A stretch of DNA of 23,438 nt from a virus, in the IMG/VR virus record IMGVR_UViG_3300013126_000252, positions 1-23,438 of that record; one strand, 5' to 3'. Position numbers and translations under genes: made by a program. The notes under the pieces are model-generated. The model saw only the letters and a list, made by a program, of their open reading frames with translations, did not search any database and had not been told where the DNA came from. Shown piece after piece: positions 1 through 9,028 of the stretch. Position 1 is the first letter of the stretch; each line of letters opens with the position of its first letter.

Positions 1-1536
1 GACCGCGTTTGGCGCGTTGTATTCAGATCCGCGCCCATTAGTATTGGCATTCCATGTAGTGCCAGCATAAGGGCCACCACGATCATCTCCCCATACCCAC
101 AATATGCCAGTGGCCTGCATCACACCCCATTTTGAAGTGTAGGCCGCATTTAAAATCGTACTTACCTGGTCAGTTCCGATGGCCGAAGCTTCCGTTGTTC
201 CGTAAGCGGCTGCCATAAATTCGCGCTGCGTCAATAAGCGTTTGCCGTATGCGCTTGAAATTTCACTTGCTTCAAACCAAGTTAATGAGGTGTAAGCTGT
301 CGTGCCGTTACCGCCAAAAGCTGAAGGTACTTTAGAAGGGCTTGCGCCATCTGCCATGGTGACGTTATATTTTGAGGTACCATTAACGTCTGGATTGGTA
401 TTGGTGAGATAAATATCCGCCCAGAAACCGCCAGCAACTAAAGTCATGCCACGTGGATCTGAACAGGCTGGACGGAATTTTAAGTCCCAAAGGCTGTATG
501 GGTTGATTGCTGGCGTTGTATTGCCGCCAGTTTGTGCCGTGGCATTTCCGCCTGGCGCGTAGTGGAATCCGCCAATCTTGCGCCAGTTTCCTGTTGCTGG
601 AGCATTGATGTAATCTGATGTTGCTTGAATCGTGCCATCATCTTTTACCCAAACAATGTAATCTGTACCCGCTGTTAATGTCGGCATTGAAACCGCTGTT
701 GCCGTGCTGTATGTGACTAAGTTATTGCCGACTGCGATTTTTGTGCCAGCTTTAATGCTAATCGTACCAGCACCTGTAGCGGTAAATACCACGGAAGTTG
801 GGTCAGTACGCGTAAAGATGCCAGATGCAGTTACTACGGCTGATGCTACCTGATACACGACACAGCGTACAACGCCAGATGCTTCACCTCGGAATATCGC
901 AGTGTCACCCGCTGCTGTTGTGATGTTTCCTGAACTCGGTAAGATTAAGTTAGCGCCTGCCGTTAACGTCAAAGCACCTTTAAATACAACTGTGCGTTCG
1001 GCGCCTTGAGCAAGCGTAATTCCCGTAATTGCCGTTGTGCCAGTAATATTGACGTAGTTACCTGTCGCAGTTGTCAAGTTGACAGTGGCGGATGATGCAA
1101 TATCAGCGCCCTGAGCTTCATTTAATGCGCCTGTTAAAGTGCCGCCCCCCAGGCCAAGATAGTTTGTGTTTTGTGCTAAATAAACATTTGTACCATCGCT
1201 CCATAGGTTCATTGCTTGGCCTTGTGGTACAGCAACCCCTGCGCCACCTTGAGCAATTACAGTGATGGTGTAATTTCCAGTAGTTGCATTTTTAATCACC
1301 CAATCCATCGAGCTGGCGGGCATAATGACGCTGATGTTTCCTGTAAGTGCACCTGATAACTGAATAAGTTTGGTGTTAGCCTCATCTGCTGTCAACGTAA
1401 CGTTAGTATTTCCTGCCACATTTTTAGATAAAAACCCGCCAATACTTGCTTGCAATACTGTAAAACCAGAGTTCACATCCTGGACTAGAGTTAGTCCAGA
1501 TAGAACTCCTGTTACCGGGATTGAAATATCTTTCAT
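1..1536 (-). CDS. Receptor-binding tail protein with C-type-lectin-like C-terminus (3' end outside window)
   Basis: The ATG at 1536 follows a good ribosome site (AAAGGA just upstream). The frame stays open for 512 codons to the window edge, so the C-terminus is missing. Residues 60-130 and 130-230 look like beta-rich phage fibre modules (for example NLWSDGTNVYLA at 110-121 and LAQGAERTVVF at 175-185). From about residue 345 the protein resembles the C-type lectin / formylglycine-generating-enzyme fold used by phage tropism proteins: LWDLKFRPACSDPRGM (349-364), GKRLLTQREFMAAAYG (431-446), and WVWGDDRGG (480-488). The final stretch is rich in Asn/Tyr codons (WNANTNGRGSEYNAPN). Such folds sit at the tip of tail fibres and bind receptors; several are targets of diversity-generating retroelements. 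It follows the tip protein J gene by 17 bp, the expected place for a fibre. Assignment of the fold is by motif recognition; variation of this protein is inference. Confidence 0.85.
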   Translation of the reverse strand, partial: MKDISIPVTGVLSGLTLVQDVNSGFTVLQASIGGFLSKNVAGNTNVTLTADEANTKLIQLSGALTGNISVIMPASSMDWVIKNATTGNYTITVIAQGGAGVAVPQGQAMNLWSDGTNVYLAQNTNYLGLGGGTLTGALNEAQGADIASSATVNLTTATGNYVNITGTTAITGITLAQGAERTVVFKGALTLTAGANLILPSSGNITTAAGDTAIFRGEASGVVRCVVYQVASAVVTASGIFTRTDPTSVVFTATGAGTISIKAGTKIAVGNNLVTYSTATAVSMPTLTAGTDYIVWVKDDGTIQATSDYINAPATGNWRKIGGFHYAPGGNATAQTGGNTTPAINPYSLWDLKFRPACSDPRGMTLVAGGFWADIYLTNTNPDVNGTSKYNVTMADGASPSKVPSAFGGNGTTAYTSLTWFEASEISSAYGKRLLTQREFMAAAYGTTEASAIGTDQVSTILNAAYTSKWGVMQATGILWVWGDDRGGPYAGTTWNANTNGRGSEYNAPNAV

Positions 1537-1553: not shown

Positions 1554-4547
1554 TTAATAGCCTTGGGCTTGAATGTTGACGGTTCTTATTACACGAGAAC
1601 CGCCGTTATATACGTCTAAACTCAATCCAGTTGCTGTAACATTACTGAGCACTACAACATCACCCGATGCCGCATTTACAATTGTTGTTTGAACGGTCGG
1701 AACGCTAGAAGCGCCATTTCCGCCATTAAATGGCGATGTGTAAGTTAGTGAGGTGGTGGTTGTGCTAGATGTTATGCTCTGGTAAGAATCAATACGATCC
1801 GGAACATCTACTGAAAAAGTAAATTGGGGGATGAGTGTTGTCACAGCGGTATCTGAAGATGTGACAAGCAATCTTGCTTTAAAATATTGAGCGTTATATG
1901 TCCCTGTTATAAAGTTTTGCCAAGCGCCATAAACTCCGTTGCTATTAGCGATTGCAATTTGTGGTTGGATCGTGATTTTTGATCCAAGTACAGAGGCAAG
2001 GATGTCCGTTGCAGATAATATGTCTTTGATGTTAAGTGTATTATCGTAAATTGATTGGGCATAGGCTATGTAGTTCATTGTGACAATACATGGTGCAATG
2101 CGGCCAATATTTACTAAATGACTAGCTGGCAAATCATATTCACCGCTAGTGCATACACCTCCGTACCATATTACGTCAGTTATTGATAAGGCATTAGGCT
2201 CGCCGAGTATGTTTCCGCTTGCGCCCAAATACAAATTATTATTTACAACTTCCATGTTGATGCGCGTACCAAGCCAGCCTAAATTTGGCTCATTAAAACT
2301 AGCAATTACATTTCGAACAAGCGTTGCTCCTGACACTTGAATGGCCACGGGAGCGGTTGAATAGATATTAATTCCGCTGCTTGTTTGATAATGTGCCGCA
2401 ATCCAGTGAGTTCCATTACAAATAGCTGTAAAACTAGCTAATGAAGTGCGGCCAAATACGGACGCCGTTTCCCATGTATTTCCTACGCGAATCTCATAGT
2501 CAACATTGGGCTGTCTGAAATCTTTGATAGCATCCCAATACAGGTTTAATACATTACCAACAAAGTTGCTTGTCACATTCTGCACATTTGGCAATGCGCT
2601 GGTAAGCGCAGAACCTTGAATTGTATAAATAATCGCTTCAATGTCTGCAATTGATTGAACCGCTGCACCATATTGATTGAAGCTTGGTAACTTGATATAA
2701 ATCTTATTGCCAATCTTGTCAGGTGTGAACGCGTATTTTGCTAGTGCTTTGTCGTCAATACGAATAAATGGGGAGTTGGCTGCGTGCGTTGAAATATTTG
2801 AGTGATATACACCTCGGCGCAAATAACTCAAATTGTATTTATTAGCCCCCACCAAAGTTGAATTTTGATAGCTGATATATTCACCATCCACATATGCAAG
2901 TGTTGTGAAGTTATCCGCATCTGCTTGAGACCCGCCATCAAGCGTTGCACGACTGATGCTTAGGTCTATAGATAATGTATCATCTTTGTCAGGGTCAGCA
3001 TGTGAAACTAATGGGGAGTTTAGCCAGCCCATTCGAGCCGGATTAGTGATCGTAGCAATCTGTTGGTAGTTAACGCCATCAATAGATACCCAAACCTGAC
3101 AGCCGCCCCATAGCGTACCCCCGCATGCGCCAATCCATACTTCCAAGCCATTAGAAGTTAAAATAGCAGGCGCTTCAAAAATGACAGGGGCATTGGTATC
3201 GCTAGCGCTTGCATTTGTATAAAAGCTATTGGCCTCACTTGATTGCTGAGAGTAAACGGCATGACTTGATATGCCAGCTGGCGCATCCTCTGCAATAATC
3301 GTTAGCAAGCCATCTTCGTTTTCTTCAACAGATAAAATTCGGATTGGATAACTATTCAAACCAAGCGCGGCATCGGTAATCGTTACATAGTCTGTGGGCT
3401 CAAGTAAGCAATATTTCCAAGAAAGCGTAAATTCATAGGTATTTCGAATGTAACAACTTCTTTGCAGTAATAACTGGGCCACAGACCGCGCAACAGAAGG
3501 TAATGCAATTTCATGTGCTGTAATTGGCTGCATTGGGCGCAATCCAAGCGAATCGATATTGACCTGATCTTTTGCTTCTGCGATTTCAATATTGTATTCA
3601 TTGAAGCGATTTACAAACTCTACTTGCACTGAGTTGAAGGCGTCTGAGGTGGCATTGCGTAATAACCTCACGGGATCTTCCCCGGCAGTCACGATAAAAT
3701 CATCATCGTTAAGCGCGTAAATCGGCATTACGTTTGGCGTATAAGCTACGCCGTTTCCTACGGAGGAAGAATCTCCAAATGGTGTAATTTTAAGTTTACC
3801 CTCGCTGAAATAAATTCCTGAATTTGTAATTCTGCAAAGGTCGGTCAAGATTTCATTAGCTCGTTTTTGTGTGGTGTACGCGGGAGACAAAAACAAATTA
3901 TTGGATACACAATAATTGGAATATTGCGTTAAATCTCCAATTTTAATGGCTGGAAAACCAACGCCATAATGACCATTGGTCAGAAAATCAACGACAATAT
4001 CCCTAGGGTTAGCGTCATCAATCACGCCACTATTAAATTGCAGGCGACCACTCACGTCAAACGTATGATTAGGTAATGACGAGTTGTTACCTAAGTCGTA
4101 TGCGCTAGCTGCAACGTAAGATAGCCCCTCATAAGCTAACGCGCTATCTGGGTGCTTAGTTGCAATCCATGTCCATACAGATTGCGGATAGGAACCTAAG
4201 AATTTACTAAATTTGCTACCAGCGTCAGTGATATAGTCCTTGTCAGACCAAAAAGCATTGATTCCGGAGATTTGTCCTTCGCACAAACCAAGAGCAAGCG
4301 CAGCTGTATAGGTGTAGGTGGTATTGGTTGAATCAACACTACCGCCGCCTTTTCCGCCACCGCTGGAGGTGGTTGTAGTATGTGGTACCGCCGTAAAATC
4401 ACTATACCAAATCAGATTGCCAGCAATACGGCTGCGGCCATATAAAATTGGTACAACAAGTCCATAAGCTGACGTTTGAATTCGTAAGCCAAGCGCCATT
4501 GGCTCAGTCGTGTTAATCGACTGACTGCTTCCAAATATACCACCCAT
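1554..4547 (-). CDS. J: Tail tip / host-specificity protein (J-like)
   Basis: A 997-residue protein, slightly shorter than lambda gpJ (1132). It occupies the J position, directly after the NlpC/P60 protein and before the fibre gene. The N-terminus (PMALGLRIQTSAYGLVVPIL, about 16-35) is typical of the tail-hub family that begins with a short segment reading through 'YG...ILYGRSRIAGNLIWY'. The middle contains hub-like beta domains (roughly 170-430), followed by fibronectin-like and Ig-like regions (600-800) and a Thr/Ser-rich C-terminus. The family forms the baseplate hub and central tip that contacts the host surface. Start codon and upstream stop overlap the neighbouring gene by one base, indicating translational coupling. 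Confidence is high for role, lower for precise domain borders. Confidence 0.88.
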   Translation of the reverse strand: MGGIFGSSQSINTTEPMALGLRIQTSAYGLVVPILYGRSRIAGNLIWYSDFTAVPHTTTTSSGGGKGGGSVDSTNTTYTYTAALALGLCEGQISGINAFWSDKDYITDAGSKFSKFLGSYPQSVWTWIATKHPDSALAYEGLSYVAASAYDLGNNSSLPNHTFDVSGRLQFNSGVIDDANPRDIVVDFLTNGHYGVGFPAIKIGDLTQYSNYCVSNNLFLSPAYTTQKRANEILTDLCRITNSGIYFSEGKLKITPFGDSSSVGNGVAYTPNVMPIYALNDDDFIVTAGEDPVRLLRNATSDAFNSVQVEFVNRFNEYNIEIAEAKDQVNIDSLGLRPMQPITAHEIALPSVARSVAQLLLQRSCYIRNTYEFTLSWKYCLLEPTDYVTITDAALGLNSYPIRILSVEENEDGLLTIIAEDAPAGISSHAVYSQQSSEANSFYTNASASDTNAPVIFEAPAILTSNGLEVWIGACGGTLWGGCQVWVSIDGVNYQQIATITNPARMGWLNSPLVSHADPDKDDTLSIDLSISRATLDGGSQADADNFTTLAYVDGEYISYQNSTLVGANKYNLSYLRRGVYHSNISTHAANSPFIRIDDKALAKYAFTPDKIGNKIYIKLPSFNQYGAAVQSIADIEAIIYTIQGSALTSALPNVQNVTSNFVGNVLNLYWDAIKDFRQPNVDYEIRVGNTWETASVFGRTSLASFTAICNGTHWIAAHYQTSSGINIYSTAPVAIQVSGATLVRNVIASFNEPNLGWLGTRINMEVVNNNLYLGASGNILGEPNALSITDVIWYGGVCTSGEYDLPASHLVNIGRIAPCIVTMNYIAYAQSIYDNTLNIKDILSATDILASVLGSKITIQPQIAIANSNGVYGAWQNFITGTYNAQYFKARLLVTSSDTAVTTLIPQFTFSVDVPDRIDSYQSITSSTTTTSLTYTSPFNGGNGASSVPTVQTTIVNAASGDVVVLSNVTATGLSLDVYNGGSRVIRTVNIQAQGY

Positions 4548-4975: not shown

Positions 4976-5844
4976 CGTGTCGTTTCTGGTACTGGAACGT
5001 AAGGAAAACCTCTGAAATGCGCGAGGTTGTTAAATTTGTTTTTACAGGTCGATTGTTGCTTATCGCATCCTGCATAGACATAAAAACTGTCGCCTGGCGA
5101 TGGCGCTTGCGGCAATGGATTCATCAAAGAAAGACTGCTATTGGTGTACGCTTTCACGGTACGTTTAATGCCAGTCAGCGCGCCTGAGGTAAATTCAATG
5201 TACCCCATATCAAAATATCCATTAGCCTTAGATGTCACGTTGCACAAAACCAAAGAGGCGGTGCTGTTGGCATTAACAATGCCGCTAGTCCTAAAGCTTA
5301 TCCTGCTTGCTTGGCAATCTGTGTCATAAAGATTATGCGGGCATCCAGCTTGATACAAGTTGCGGGGCATTTGAATATTTAACAGCTCAATATCGCTTTT
5401 AACGACTAGATCAATTTCATTGCGCGACATGGTAATGTCAGCAACACGACCACTAAAATTCACGTACCCGCCAATGACTGTCGTGTTATCGCTTAAAAAT
5501 ACGCGCTCAAGCAATACCATAGAGCCATCCAACACTCCTTTGGCTGCGGACTGAATCCAGCTTATAGCACCAAGCATATCTGACGATTTGGCGTAAATCT
5601 TGAGGTCAAGAGTATCTACCTCAACACCCAAAATAGTTCTCACGCGCGAGCGCTCAAAAAGTGGATTGGTGCCATCCCCTGCTTTATTAAAGGTGATTCC
5701 GTTATAAGTGACATTCAAATCCCAAAGGGCATAACGATAGTTTGTGCCATCGAGCAGCGTGAACGTCAATAAATCCACCATAATGTATTCTTGATGGTTA
5801 TTGAGATAGTTAATTAAATCCGCTGAAGCTGATTTCATGCTCAT
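4972..5844 (-). CDS. L: DUF2163 / BR0599-family tail tip protein (L-like)
   Basis: A 290-residue protein with the DUF2163 layout: an N-terminal beta domain (DLLTFTLLDGTNYRYALWD at 24-42) and a C-terminal region ending AHFRGFPYVPVPE. Four cysteines (168, 177, 260, 267) in AGCPHNLYDTDC and AGCDKQQSTC match the cluster that, in lambda gpL, binds an iron-sulphur centre in the tail tip. Binding here is inferred from cysteine placement. The gene lies between the DUF2460 and NlpC/P60 genes with 4-bp overlaps on both sides, so the three are probably translated together. It corresponds in position to lambda L. Confidence 0.9.
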   Translation of the reverse strand: MSMKSASADLINYLNNHQEYIMVDLLTFTLLDGTNYRYALWDLNVTYNGITFNKAGDGTNPLFERSRVRTILGVEVDTLDLKIYAKSSDMLGAISWIQSAAKGVLDGSMVLLERVFLSDNTTVIGGYVNFSGRVADITMSRNEIDLVVKSDIELLNIQMPRNLYQAGCPHNLYDTDCQASRISFRTSGIVNANSTASLVLCNVTSKANGYFDMGYIEFTSGALTGIKRTVKAYTNSSLSLMNPLPQAPSPGDSFYVYAGCDKQQSTCKNKFNNLAHFRGFPYVPVPETTR

Positions 5845-6449
5845 ACCTTATTTAGGGTGCTACCAACAAAATCGAGCTTTTTCAGTTCCCATAGGTCGCG
5901 CACCATTAAATTAAACTCACTGGTATCCTGGACAAATCGACAGCGGTAATAATAGGTGCCAGACCAACGCACAACCGAGCCAATGGCTGGCGGTGAGACG
6001 AATGTCACCATGCCTGTTGAATTGACTGTGTAATTGGTGACAACCGAACCATCAACTGTAATATTGGTAATCACGTTTACGTTTTGCACTGGCTCTAAAA
6101 ATACATTGCCTACACCCAGAGAGCGCACCAATTGAAAACTTACATTGCTGCCATCACCAATGCCGATGGTTTGATCTGTCATTGCATTATCTGTCGGGTC
6201 TGAGTACAAGAAGCTATCAAATGCCCCTTGGCGCGCAATAATAAAACCTATAAGCCTGTCATAATCGTTACCAAAATTTCCATCGCGTAACACTTCATAA
6301 CTAAGTTTGAATGTCCATAATGGATAAGACATAAATGCGGCTCTGCGTTCAAAACCATTTACTGAGCGATGAACCTTGGTACTAAACTCTGGCTGTTTAA
6401 CGACATTCCAGCTTTGGCCAACTAAAACTGGAAAAATAGCGTTACTCAT
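5841..6449 (-). CDS. DUF2460 distal tail protein (M-position)
   Basis: A 202-residue protein of the DUF2460 (TIGR02217) family, recognised from FPVLVGQSWNVVKQPEFST near the N-terminus, the FIIARQGAFDSFLYSDPTDN block (about 68-87) and the C-terminal beta-strands ending in LVRDLWELKKLDF. The family is common in gene-transfer agents and in siphophages with a GTA-like tip, where it acts as the distal tail ring joining tube and hub. It lies directly after the tape measure, as lambda M does, though it is about twice the length of gpM. Three bases separate it from the tape-measure stop codon. Confidence 0.88.
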   Translation of the reverse strand: MSNAIFPVLVGQSWNVVKQPEFSTKVHRSVNGFERRAAFMSYPLWTFKLSYEVLRDGNFGNDYDRLIGFIIARQGAFDSFLYSDPTDNAMTDQTIGIGDGSNVSFQLVRSLGVGNVFLEPVQNVNVITNITVDGSVVTNYTVNSTGMVTFVSPPAIGSVVRWSGTYYYRCRFVQDTSEFNLMVRDLWELKKLDFVGSTLNKV

Positions 6450-6451
6450 GA

Positions 6452-9028
6452 TTAAACCTTTATGGGTGTGAAGTTGCGCGCCATATTGCGGAGCGCCGGG
6501 GCTAGGGTATGGCTATTTGCTTTGAAATAATCACGCACGCTCTTGGCATCCATTGCATTGATATGAACGTGGACAGGTGCGCCTCCAGCCCCGCCGCCAT
6601 CGGATAAAGCACGAATGGTGTCGGCATATTTTGAAGGGAGCACCATCTCGTTTTGGTGAAGTTGGGCCACTGGATTAAGGCCCTTCGGAATGTCATAACC
6701 ACCCTCAGCAGAAATAATAGATCCTGCAAACCCAGCAACCGTAGCAAAAGCACCCGCAGCGACAACTGGCGCCATAAACGGCCCCACAATAGGAATTGCA
6801 GCAATGGCTTTATAAGCCCCAGCCATTGCCTCCCATGCATCGTTCATAATGCTTTTAATAGCAGTGCCAGCACTGATTACCATGCTTTCGCCTGCAGCCG
6901 CTTCTTCAGCTGCAGTCCGTTCTTGGGTGCCTAAGATGGTGGCGGCAGTCATCTTCACTTCTTTCATGATCCAATCGGCCAACATTTTTACGCCAAGATT
7001 GGCAAACTCAAGCGCGATGCTTTGGAAGATGTTATGAAGGGCTTTAGAGAGTGAGGTGGTGCCTTGGATGATGCCATCAATGGATTTGGAAAATGCCGCT
7101 TTAATCGGATCCGAAAACTTATCCCAGGTCTTTTTCTCTTCAATCAGGATTTGATTGTTGATTTGCGCCATGTCTTTGGCATGCTTTTCAGCCATGGCTT
7201 GGATTTTGTCGTAAGCTGCTTGCTGTGCAATCACATCATCTTTAATTAAATCGGCTTTATCCTGAGCAGCTTTTAATTCAATTTGATATTGCTGCTCTGC
7301 CAATGCTTGTAAGCCTGCCAACTCTTCTTGCGCGCTGATTTGGCCTAGTTCTTTTTTGGTTTTAAGCTGATCGCGCTCCATCTCGATTAGCGTGACATCG
7401 TGCGTACGCTGCCGATCAATGCGCATGTCTTCTAGCTTATCCATCTGCATCCGATGCTCTTCGGCTGCTTTGGTCATATCCGCAAGCGCTTTGATGTACT
7501 CTTTAGACTGCAGGCCGTAAGTGTCACCAATTTTGGCAGCAATTTCGCCAGCAATTTTGATGCGTTCGGTTCCGCCTGCTTGCTCTGCAGCGGATTGGGC
7601 TTTTAGCCCTTCGATTTCATTTTGGAAGTTTTCTTGCGCTTCTTTTTTGTGAAGTGCATAAATCTCATGCTCAACATCACGGCGCTCTTTAGAACCTTTT
7701 TTAGTTTGCGCTAGCTTTTGTTCCCAGAAAGCAATTTCTGCTTGGAGTGAGTCTTTGAAATAATTCTTTTCATTTTCGAGCATCAACTCCAATTCAGCTT
7801 TCCACTCGGTTGCACGGGATGTTTTAGTGCCCTTTGGGTCTGCGGACGCATCGGCGCCAGATTGATTCTTTTTTGAATCTTCTACAGTATCGGGATGAAT
7901 TAATCCTCGAAGGGCCTCTGCGGTCTTGCTTCCCTCTTTAATAATGTTATCAAAGCGCTTTTTAGCAATATCTTCGATGTTACCAAGGCCTTCATCCCAA
8001 GCTTTTTTAGCGCCTGAGAAATCGAGGGTTTTTAATCCCCACAAAATCTGATCGACTACTTTAATCACAGTCAATGCAAACTCTCTAATAGCTTCGCCAA
8101 TTGCTGTAGTGATCTGCCAAAGTATGTAAAAAGCGTCCCAGGCTAATTCACAAACGAAAACGACAGCATTCATCGCTACTTTAAATTTCTCAATCGCAGC
8201 AGGTGCCTCATCTCTAAACCATTGGCCGATTTGAGTTAACAATGGCATGAGTGCATCCGCGACAACTTTACCAACAGCCTCCAATACATCGCCTACATCT
8301 TTCATGGCTTTACGATAGGCTTCTTGATTTTGGGCGCCGCGTACTCCGACCGTTAATCCCAGTTCCTCATTGGTTTTTCTGGCTTCTTCAGTACGTTGCG
8401 CATTGAGTTCCAACAGCCGAGAACCATCCTCAATCCCTTTACCAAAAAACCGGATGGCAGTGACGTTTCGATCGGTACCTTCACGGTGATCGTTGGTAAT
8501 TTTGATGGCATCAAGCATCAAATCATTGAGAGGCCGAAGATGACCACTCGAATCGCGTGTGGTAAGCCCCATCTTATTGAGGCCTTCTTCGTTTTTGTTG
8601 ATTTGTTTTTCTAGCCCTTTAGCTGCGCTGGAGTAATCATCCGTGCTGACATGAATATCACCCAAAGCCTGATTAAGGGTTGCAGCATCATTGGCCGTAA
8701 TACCTAATGCACGGCCTAATTTTTCATTTTCTTCGTAATACTTAGAAGCCCCTGAAATCGCTTCTTTAAATAACTCACCGCCAGCAAATACCGCACTAAA
8801 GGCCATCATGGCGCCATTGAGTTTAGAAAACATTTCCCCAATTTGGCCAAAGTTGGAATTAATGGCAGATGTTGCCTGATTCATGGCACTTGTCATCTGC
8901 TCACTTGCTTCGCGGATACTGGATTGCATCCGCTGAGAAGTGCTCAGCGCTCTATCACCTAATTTTTCAAACTCCGCATTGGCCTGACTCGCGTCTGCGC
9001 CAATTTGAATAATAGAATCATTTGACAT
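6452..9028 (-). CDS. H: Tape measure protein
   Basis: An 858-residue protein, nearly the same length as lambda gpH (853), and the longest helical protein in the tail block. The N-terminus (1-100) is a predicted coiled coil rich in Ala, Gln, Ser and Glu. Hydrophobic segments occur near 285-335 (VAMNAVVFVCELAWDAFYIL and following). A charged coiled coil runs through about 400-640 (KAELELMLENEKNYFKDSLQ). A Gly/Ala-rich hydrophobic stretch lies near 745-790 (IAAIPIVGPFMAPVVAAGAF). The C-terminus carries VHVHINAMDAKSVRDYF, a motif often seen at the end of tape measures. It sets tail length and is ejected with the DNA. Its position after the G/T chaperones is diagnostic. Confidence 0.93.
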   Translation of the reverse strand: MSNDSIIQIGADASQANAEFEKLGDRALSTSQRMQSSIREASEQMTSAMNQATSAINSNFGQIGEMFSKLNGAMMAFSAVFAGGELFKEAISGASKYYEENEKLGRALGITANDAATLNQALGDIHVSTDDYSSAAKGLEKQINKNEEGLNKMGLTTRDSSGHLRPLNDLMLDAIKITNDHREGTDRNVTAIRFFGKGIEDGSRLLELNAQRTEEARKTNEELGLTVGVRGAQNQEAYRKAMKDVGDVLEAVGKVVADALMPLLTQIGQWFRDEAPAAIEKFKVAMNAVVFVCELAWDAFYILWQITTAIGEAIREFALTVIKVVDQILWGLKTLDFSGAKKAWDEGLGNIEDIAKKRFDNIIKEGSKTAEALRGLIHPDTVEDSKKNQSGADASADPKGTKTSRATEWKAELELMLENEKNYFKDSLQAEIAFWEQKLAQTKKGSKERRDVEHEIYALHKKEAQENFQNEIEGLKAQSAAEQAGGTERIKIAGEIAAKIGDTYGLQSKEYIKALADMTKAAEEHRMQMDKLEDMRIDRQRTHDVTLIEMERDQLKTKKELGQISAQEELAGLQALAEQQYQIELKAAQDKADLIKDDVIAQQAAYDKIQAMAEKHAKDMAQINNQILIEEKKTWDKFSDPIKAAFSKSIDGIIQGTTSLSKALHNIFQSIALEFANLGVKMLADWIMKEVKMTAATILGTQERTAAEEAAAGESMVISAGTAIKSIMNDAWEAMAGAYKAIAAIPIVGPFMAPVVAAGAFATVAGFAGSIISAEGGYDIPKGLNPVAQLHQNEMVLPSKYADTIRALSDGGGAGGAPVHVHINAMDAKSVRDYFKANSHTLAPALRNMARNFTPIKV

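Follow-up and report, generated by a model that had tools for sequence, protein, structure and literature searches.

The diversity-generating retroelement (DGR) of phage BPP-1 is arranged as mtd with its variable region (VR), avd (bbp7), the template repeat (TR), the reverse transcriptase (RT) gene brt and bbp4. Its VR is followed by a stem-loop (PMC12875486, PMC3521204), its spacer recruits RT–Avd and primes cDNA synthesis (PMC12875486), and DGR reverse transcriptases carry the signature (I/L/V)GxxxSQ plus YxDD (PMC3521204). The window analysed here, the entire IMG/VR record IMGVR_UViG_3300013126_000252 (23,438 bases, linear, probably a fragment), almost certainly ends within the target gene of a DGR of this Mtd type. 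Because the window is the whole of the fragment, the remainder of the locus cannot lie in it, and a search of this 23,438-base record found no RT. ORF translation confirms the 512-residue frame described in the earlier note: the minus strand is free of stops from base 1536 to base 1 and still open there, giving an mtd homologue (1..1536, minus strand) that is cut by the window end at 512 of 554 codons.

The encoded fibre is modular. Residues 240–511 align to the solved BPP-1 Mtd (phmmer, 8e-84; approximately 53% identity by tblastn), PHROG 11262 matches residues 236–510 (9e-100) and Pfam PF21916 (mtd_2nd) matches residues 250–351 (hmmscan, 4.9e-20), which places the second Mtd domain at 484..789 (minus strand). 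The C-type lectin part up to the VR forms a conserved scaffold (1..504, minus strand; residues 345–512, from phmmer and the homologue alignment). Judged by sequence comparison, the predicted Mtd-type lectin fold is far beyond chance; an AlphaFold model of the full Mtd had a mean pLDDT of 49, too low for structure searching, and was left unused. The motifs previously cited for this fold, GKRLLTQREFMAAAYG and WVWGDDRGG, both occur in the protein, within the stretch aligned to solved Mtd. A cluster of Asn and Tyr codons in the window (WNANTNGRGSEYNAPN), which had been taken for adenine targets, is rejected as a site of mutagenesis: it is conserved across the family (homologue consensus WNANTEGRGSEYNAPN) and sits upstream of the template repeat match, and is therefore scaffold. 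The N-terminal part (832..1536, minus strand; approximately residues 1–235) is not Mtd-like. Similarity begins at residue 240, where the PDB alignment starts, the N-terminal domain of BPP-1 Mtd is absent, and residues 28–123 resemble fibres of Bordetella phage vB_BbrM_PHB04 and others (tblastn). The Mtd N-terminal domain is not essential to the lectin–DGR module.

Searching viral contigs yielded IMGVR_UViG_3300013132_002072 (5,321 bases; hereafter L001), whose opening 2,232 bases reproduce the window's end on the minus strand with 0 mismatches (window base = 2233 minus L001 position) and which extends 3.1 kb beyond it. The two contigs probably join, as judged from an exact overlap between two assemblies rather than from a single molecule. 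L001 reads, in the gene order of BPP-1, VR, mtd stop, GAAA hairpin, Avd, TR, structured spacer, RT and a bbp4-like gene. The remaining mtd codons occupy L001:2233-2361, with the stop at 2361, and the VR (L001:2226-2343) covers codons 511–549 of 554 at the 3′ end of the gene. As the TR–VR match begins at L001:2226, the minus-strand counterpart of window base 7, the window ends 7 bases into the VR (CGCGGTC; 1..7, minus strand); NAPNAV, the point near the VR at which the earlier note had the window stop, is the last peptide. A hairpin, GAGGGC-GAAA-GCCCTC, starts 19 bases beyond the VR and is followed by Avd (L001:2392-2757; NF033474, 4.8e-31, 107 bits against a cut-off of 80) and the TR (L001:2770-2887), a 118-nt near-repeat of the VR. 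After a 140-base spacer comes the RT (L001:3028-4020; PF00078, 2.6e-19; PHROG 1423, 2.3e-108), an open frame bearing the DGR-type motifs IGSLTSQ and YMDD, whose end is overlapped by a 78-aa bbp4-like ORF (L001:3995-4231). The leftward extension proposed as a check is supplied by L001, and the TR, RT and Avd predicted to the left of the window are all found there, at most 1.8 kb from its end. This confirms a complete BPP-1-like tropism-switching cassette for an uncultivated phage.

The VR and TR of L001 differ at 12 of 118 nt, and 11 of these mismatches fall at template A, a base that makes up 27 of the 118 TR positions (hypergeometric p 1.4e-7). The anticipated near-repeat therefore exists, and the expected restriction to A holds for all but one mismatch, a C to G. 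Across 83 VR–TR pairs from 77 loci (L001 counted in), TR A accounts for 1,069 of 1,158 mismatches; the VR departs from the TR at half of the template adenines, but at just 0.4% of C, 0.8% of G and 3% of T. A occurs in 16 complete TR codons, none of which an A-to-N change can turn into a stop, with an upper bound on diversity of 4^27 DNA sequences and ~10^14.7 proteins. Eleven of these variable codons line up with A-bearing BPP-1 codons between 344 and 369, all shifted by the same 173 residues.

Adenine-specific variation in related phages, suggested beforehand as a check, is likewise found. Four pairs of relatives (L020/L085, L067/L069, L030/L035 and L105/L108) are 99–100% identical over 900 bases past the TR, and their VRs carry as many as 22 differences, all or most of them at TR adenines; these relatives come from different samples. 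Two further near-identical pairs (L095/L096 and L105/L107) have identical VRs.

Mismatches at bases other than A are mainly T to G: within the core of 80 non-identical VRs this change makes up 25 of 57, and once four poor pairs are removed, 19 of 26. They recur at identical sites across unrelated loci, AAC[T>G]CC being one such site. Either the RT sometimes sets C opposite U, or selection or recombination between TR alleles is responsible. The TR of L031 has G at one of these T to G sites. The same TR (L031:3406-3526) departs from those of its sisters at 3 sites, each agreeing with the VR of L031 itself, as would be expected had a stretch of VR been copied back to the TR.

The position at which the window breaks off may itself be informative. 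The first TR-A/VR mismatch, L001:2233, is the first base beyond the window end, so that the assembly stopped 1 base before it, probably because the sample held more than one VR variant; among other contigs, L075 terminates 8 bases into its own VR. Of 23 contigs (window included) with ends falling from 100 bases before the VR start to 2,000 bases past it, 6 break off within the VR zone of 126 bases, where 1.4 would be expected (binomial p 0.002); the numbers are small, the window is among the six and the zone was picked with the window in view. An assembler that mixed up VR and TR would also produce such breaks with no coexisting variants, and L005 and L064 do terminate near the TR 3′ end, where TR is almost identical to VR. 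We consider this unlikely for the window, since close to this end L001 has just short exact VR–TR matches (7 and 18 bases, below usual k-mers, the assembler itself not being known), and since the window stops precisely 1 base short of the first TR-A/VR mismatch and L075 8 bases into its VR. A search for other VR variants of the window's own phage found L001 alone. The reading with coexisting variants suggests that a contig breaking off within an Mtd-like gene can itself signal hypervariation.

Two elements in cis accompany the repeats. In 57 of 80 loci the VR is followed by a perfect stem of 6 bp or more, capped by a G--A tetraloop; the TR is followed by one in 0 of 80. The hairpin of L001 agrees with the BPP-1 stem-loop. 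For the TR–RT spacer, the fold derived from 24 sequences (BPP-1 among them) has 26 consensus pairs, of which 18 show compensatory change; by analogy, we infer that the L001 spacer acts as the RNA that recruits RT–Avd and primes synthesis.

With the parts and their order, the adenine-specific mismatches, the A-restricted VR differences of near-identical relatives, the conservation of the hairpin and the covariation in the spacer all directly observed, the biochemical steps can be sketched on the model of BPP-1. The TR would be transcribed, an Avd–RT complex would bind the structured spacer 3′ of it, and cDNA would be made with random bases opposite template adenines. This cDNA would then substitute for the VR at the mtd 3′ end, steered by the IMH and the hairpin right after the stop codon. 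Up to 16 lectin-domain codons would be rewritten, none able to become a stop, and the binding specificity of the tail would be altered. We infer in the same way that the cassette is active in the window's phage population and that host binding changes as a result.

Several relatives have lost part or all of the cassette. L071 (locus 5490-5940) keeps Avd with no TR or RT on the contig, and L072 (locus 6900-7000) has neither Avd nor RT/TR, with AAGGGC microhomology at the ends of the Avd deletion; the pattern from L071 to L072 is one of stepwise DGR loss. That the window's lineage likewise kept its Mtd-like fibre and lost a working DGR is very improbable: Mtd relatives without an RT anywhere on the contig do occur (for example L013, L029, L041, L060 and L072), but L001, which matches the window base for base along 2,232 positions, retains Avd, a TR, an open RT frame and a VR whose changes are A-specific.

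In L032, L034 and L145, from three metagenomes and of the same species as L026, L030, L031 and L035, a 617-base HNH endonuclease block (L032:3119-3736; L034:1910-2527; L145 from approximately 371; PF13392, 5.5e-8) replaces the Avd–TR–RT of these relatives. On the left it joins mtd inside the IMH, and on the right it abuts the start codon of the following gene. Two genotypes share the insert at 99.7% identity although their VRs differ at TR-A sites, which leads us to propose, tentatively and as somewhat less than an even prospect, that a homing-type HNH gene displaced Avd–TR–RT and either spreads into DGR loci or leaves DGR-less VRs that are rewritten in trans. If true, DGR loci would be a niche in which mobile elements compete. 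In a literature search, terms for DGRs and homing endonucleases co-occurred in the text of three papers and in no title or abstract. The family offers natural same-species sets, with intact and HNH-displaced DGRs, together with cases of partial loss, and such sets could serve to test DGR gain, loss and trans-activity.

The family is widespread: relatives are encoded on 457 viral stretches, and an alignment query found 25 loci in bacterial genomes, mostly of Proteobacteria (a scan with a single protein query found no relatives). In L040, L051, L052, L053, L113, L137, L138 and L139 two tandem mtd-like genes precede one TR, Avd and RT, a single DGR with two targets. In L122, L136 and L140 the RT comes soon after mtd, and no TR turned up between the two or nearby; Avd is present in L122 and L136 and absent from L140. 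The backbone of the window has a lambda-type portal, a GpA terminase and an Rcc01698-like tail protein, the last encoded upstream of mtd in the tail module (1554..4547, minus strand; Phage-tail_3, Rcc01698_C). The idea that an Mtd–DGR is common to relatives of this backbone was not borne out: none of 26 records with related terminases, many of them fragments, has an Mtd match, and two have another type of DGR. These two (L228:3799-6803, from G035, and L227, from G039) encode RTs of 467–476 aa with GNLSSQ and have TRs of 108–111 nt; in G035 a single TR supplies two VRs, which lie within two small genes adjoining a ParB-like gene. Since the terminase relatives lack an Mtd match and the fibre N terminus is not that of Mtd, the Mtd–DGR block is probably an exchanged module.

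DGRs of this kind are already known, and the cassette of the window's phage is a further, BPP-1-like member. In the global survey of Roux et al. 2021, other phage DGRs likewise have a C-type lectin VR at the C terminus of a modular tail protein, and because that survey mined IMG metagenomes (PMC8144416), the L001 cassette or a relative may already be in its lists. Mtd homologues of Synechococcus phages S-CBS1 and S-CBS3 and Marinomonas phage P12026 are more distant (37–45% identity, tblastn). Identity to BPP-1 is 55% for the RT (brt), 62% for Avd (bbp7) and 61% for the bbp4-like 78-aa ORF, and in both cassettes 11 variable codons occupy matching Mtd positions, a hairpin follows the VR and the spacer RNAs are homologous. 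They differ in the N-terminal part of the fibre and, read from the window side alone, in the phage backbone, with its lambda-type portal and GpA terminase. Beyond BPP-1, the TR of L001 has A-bearing codons at 513 and 540, and third-position adenines at 526 and 535.
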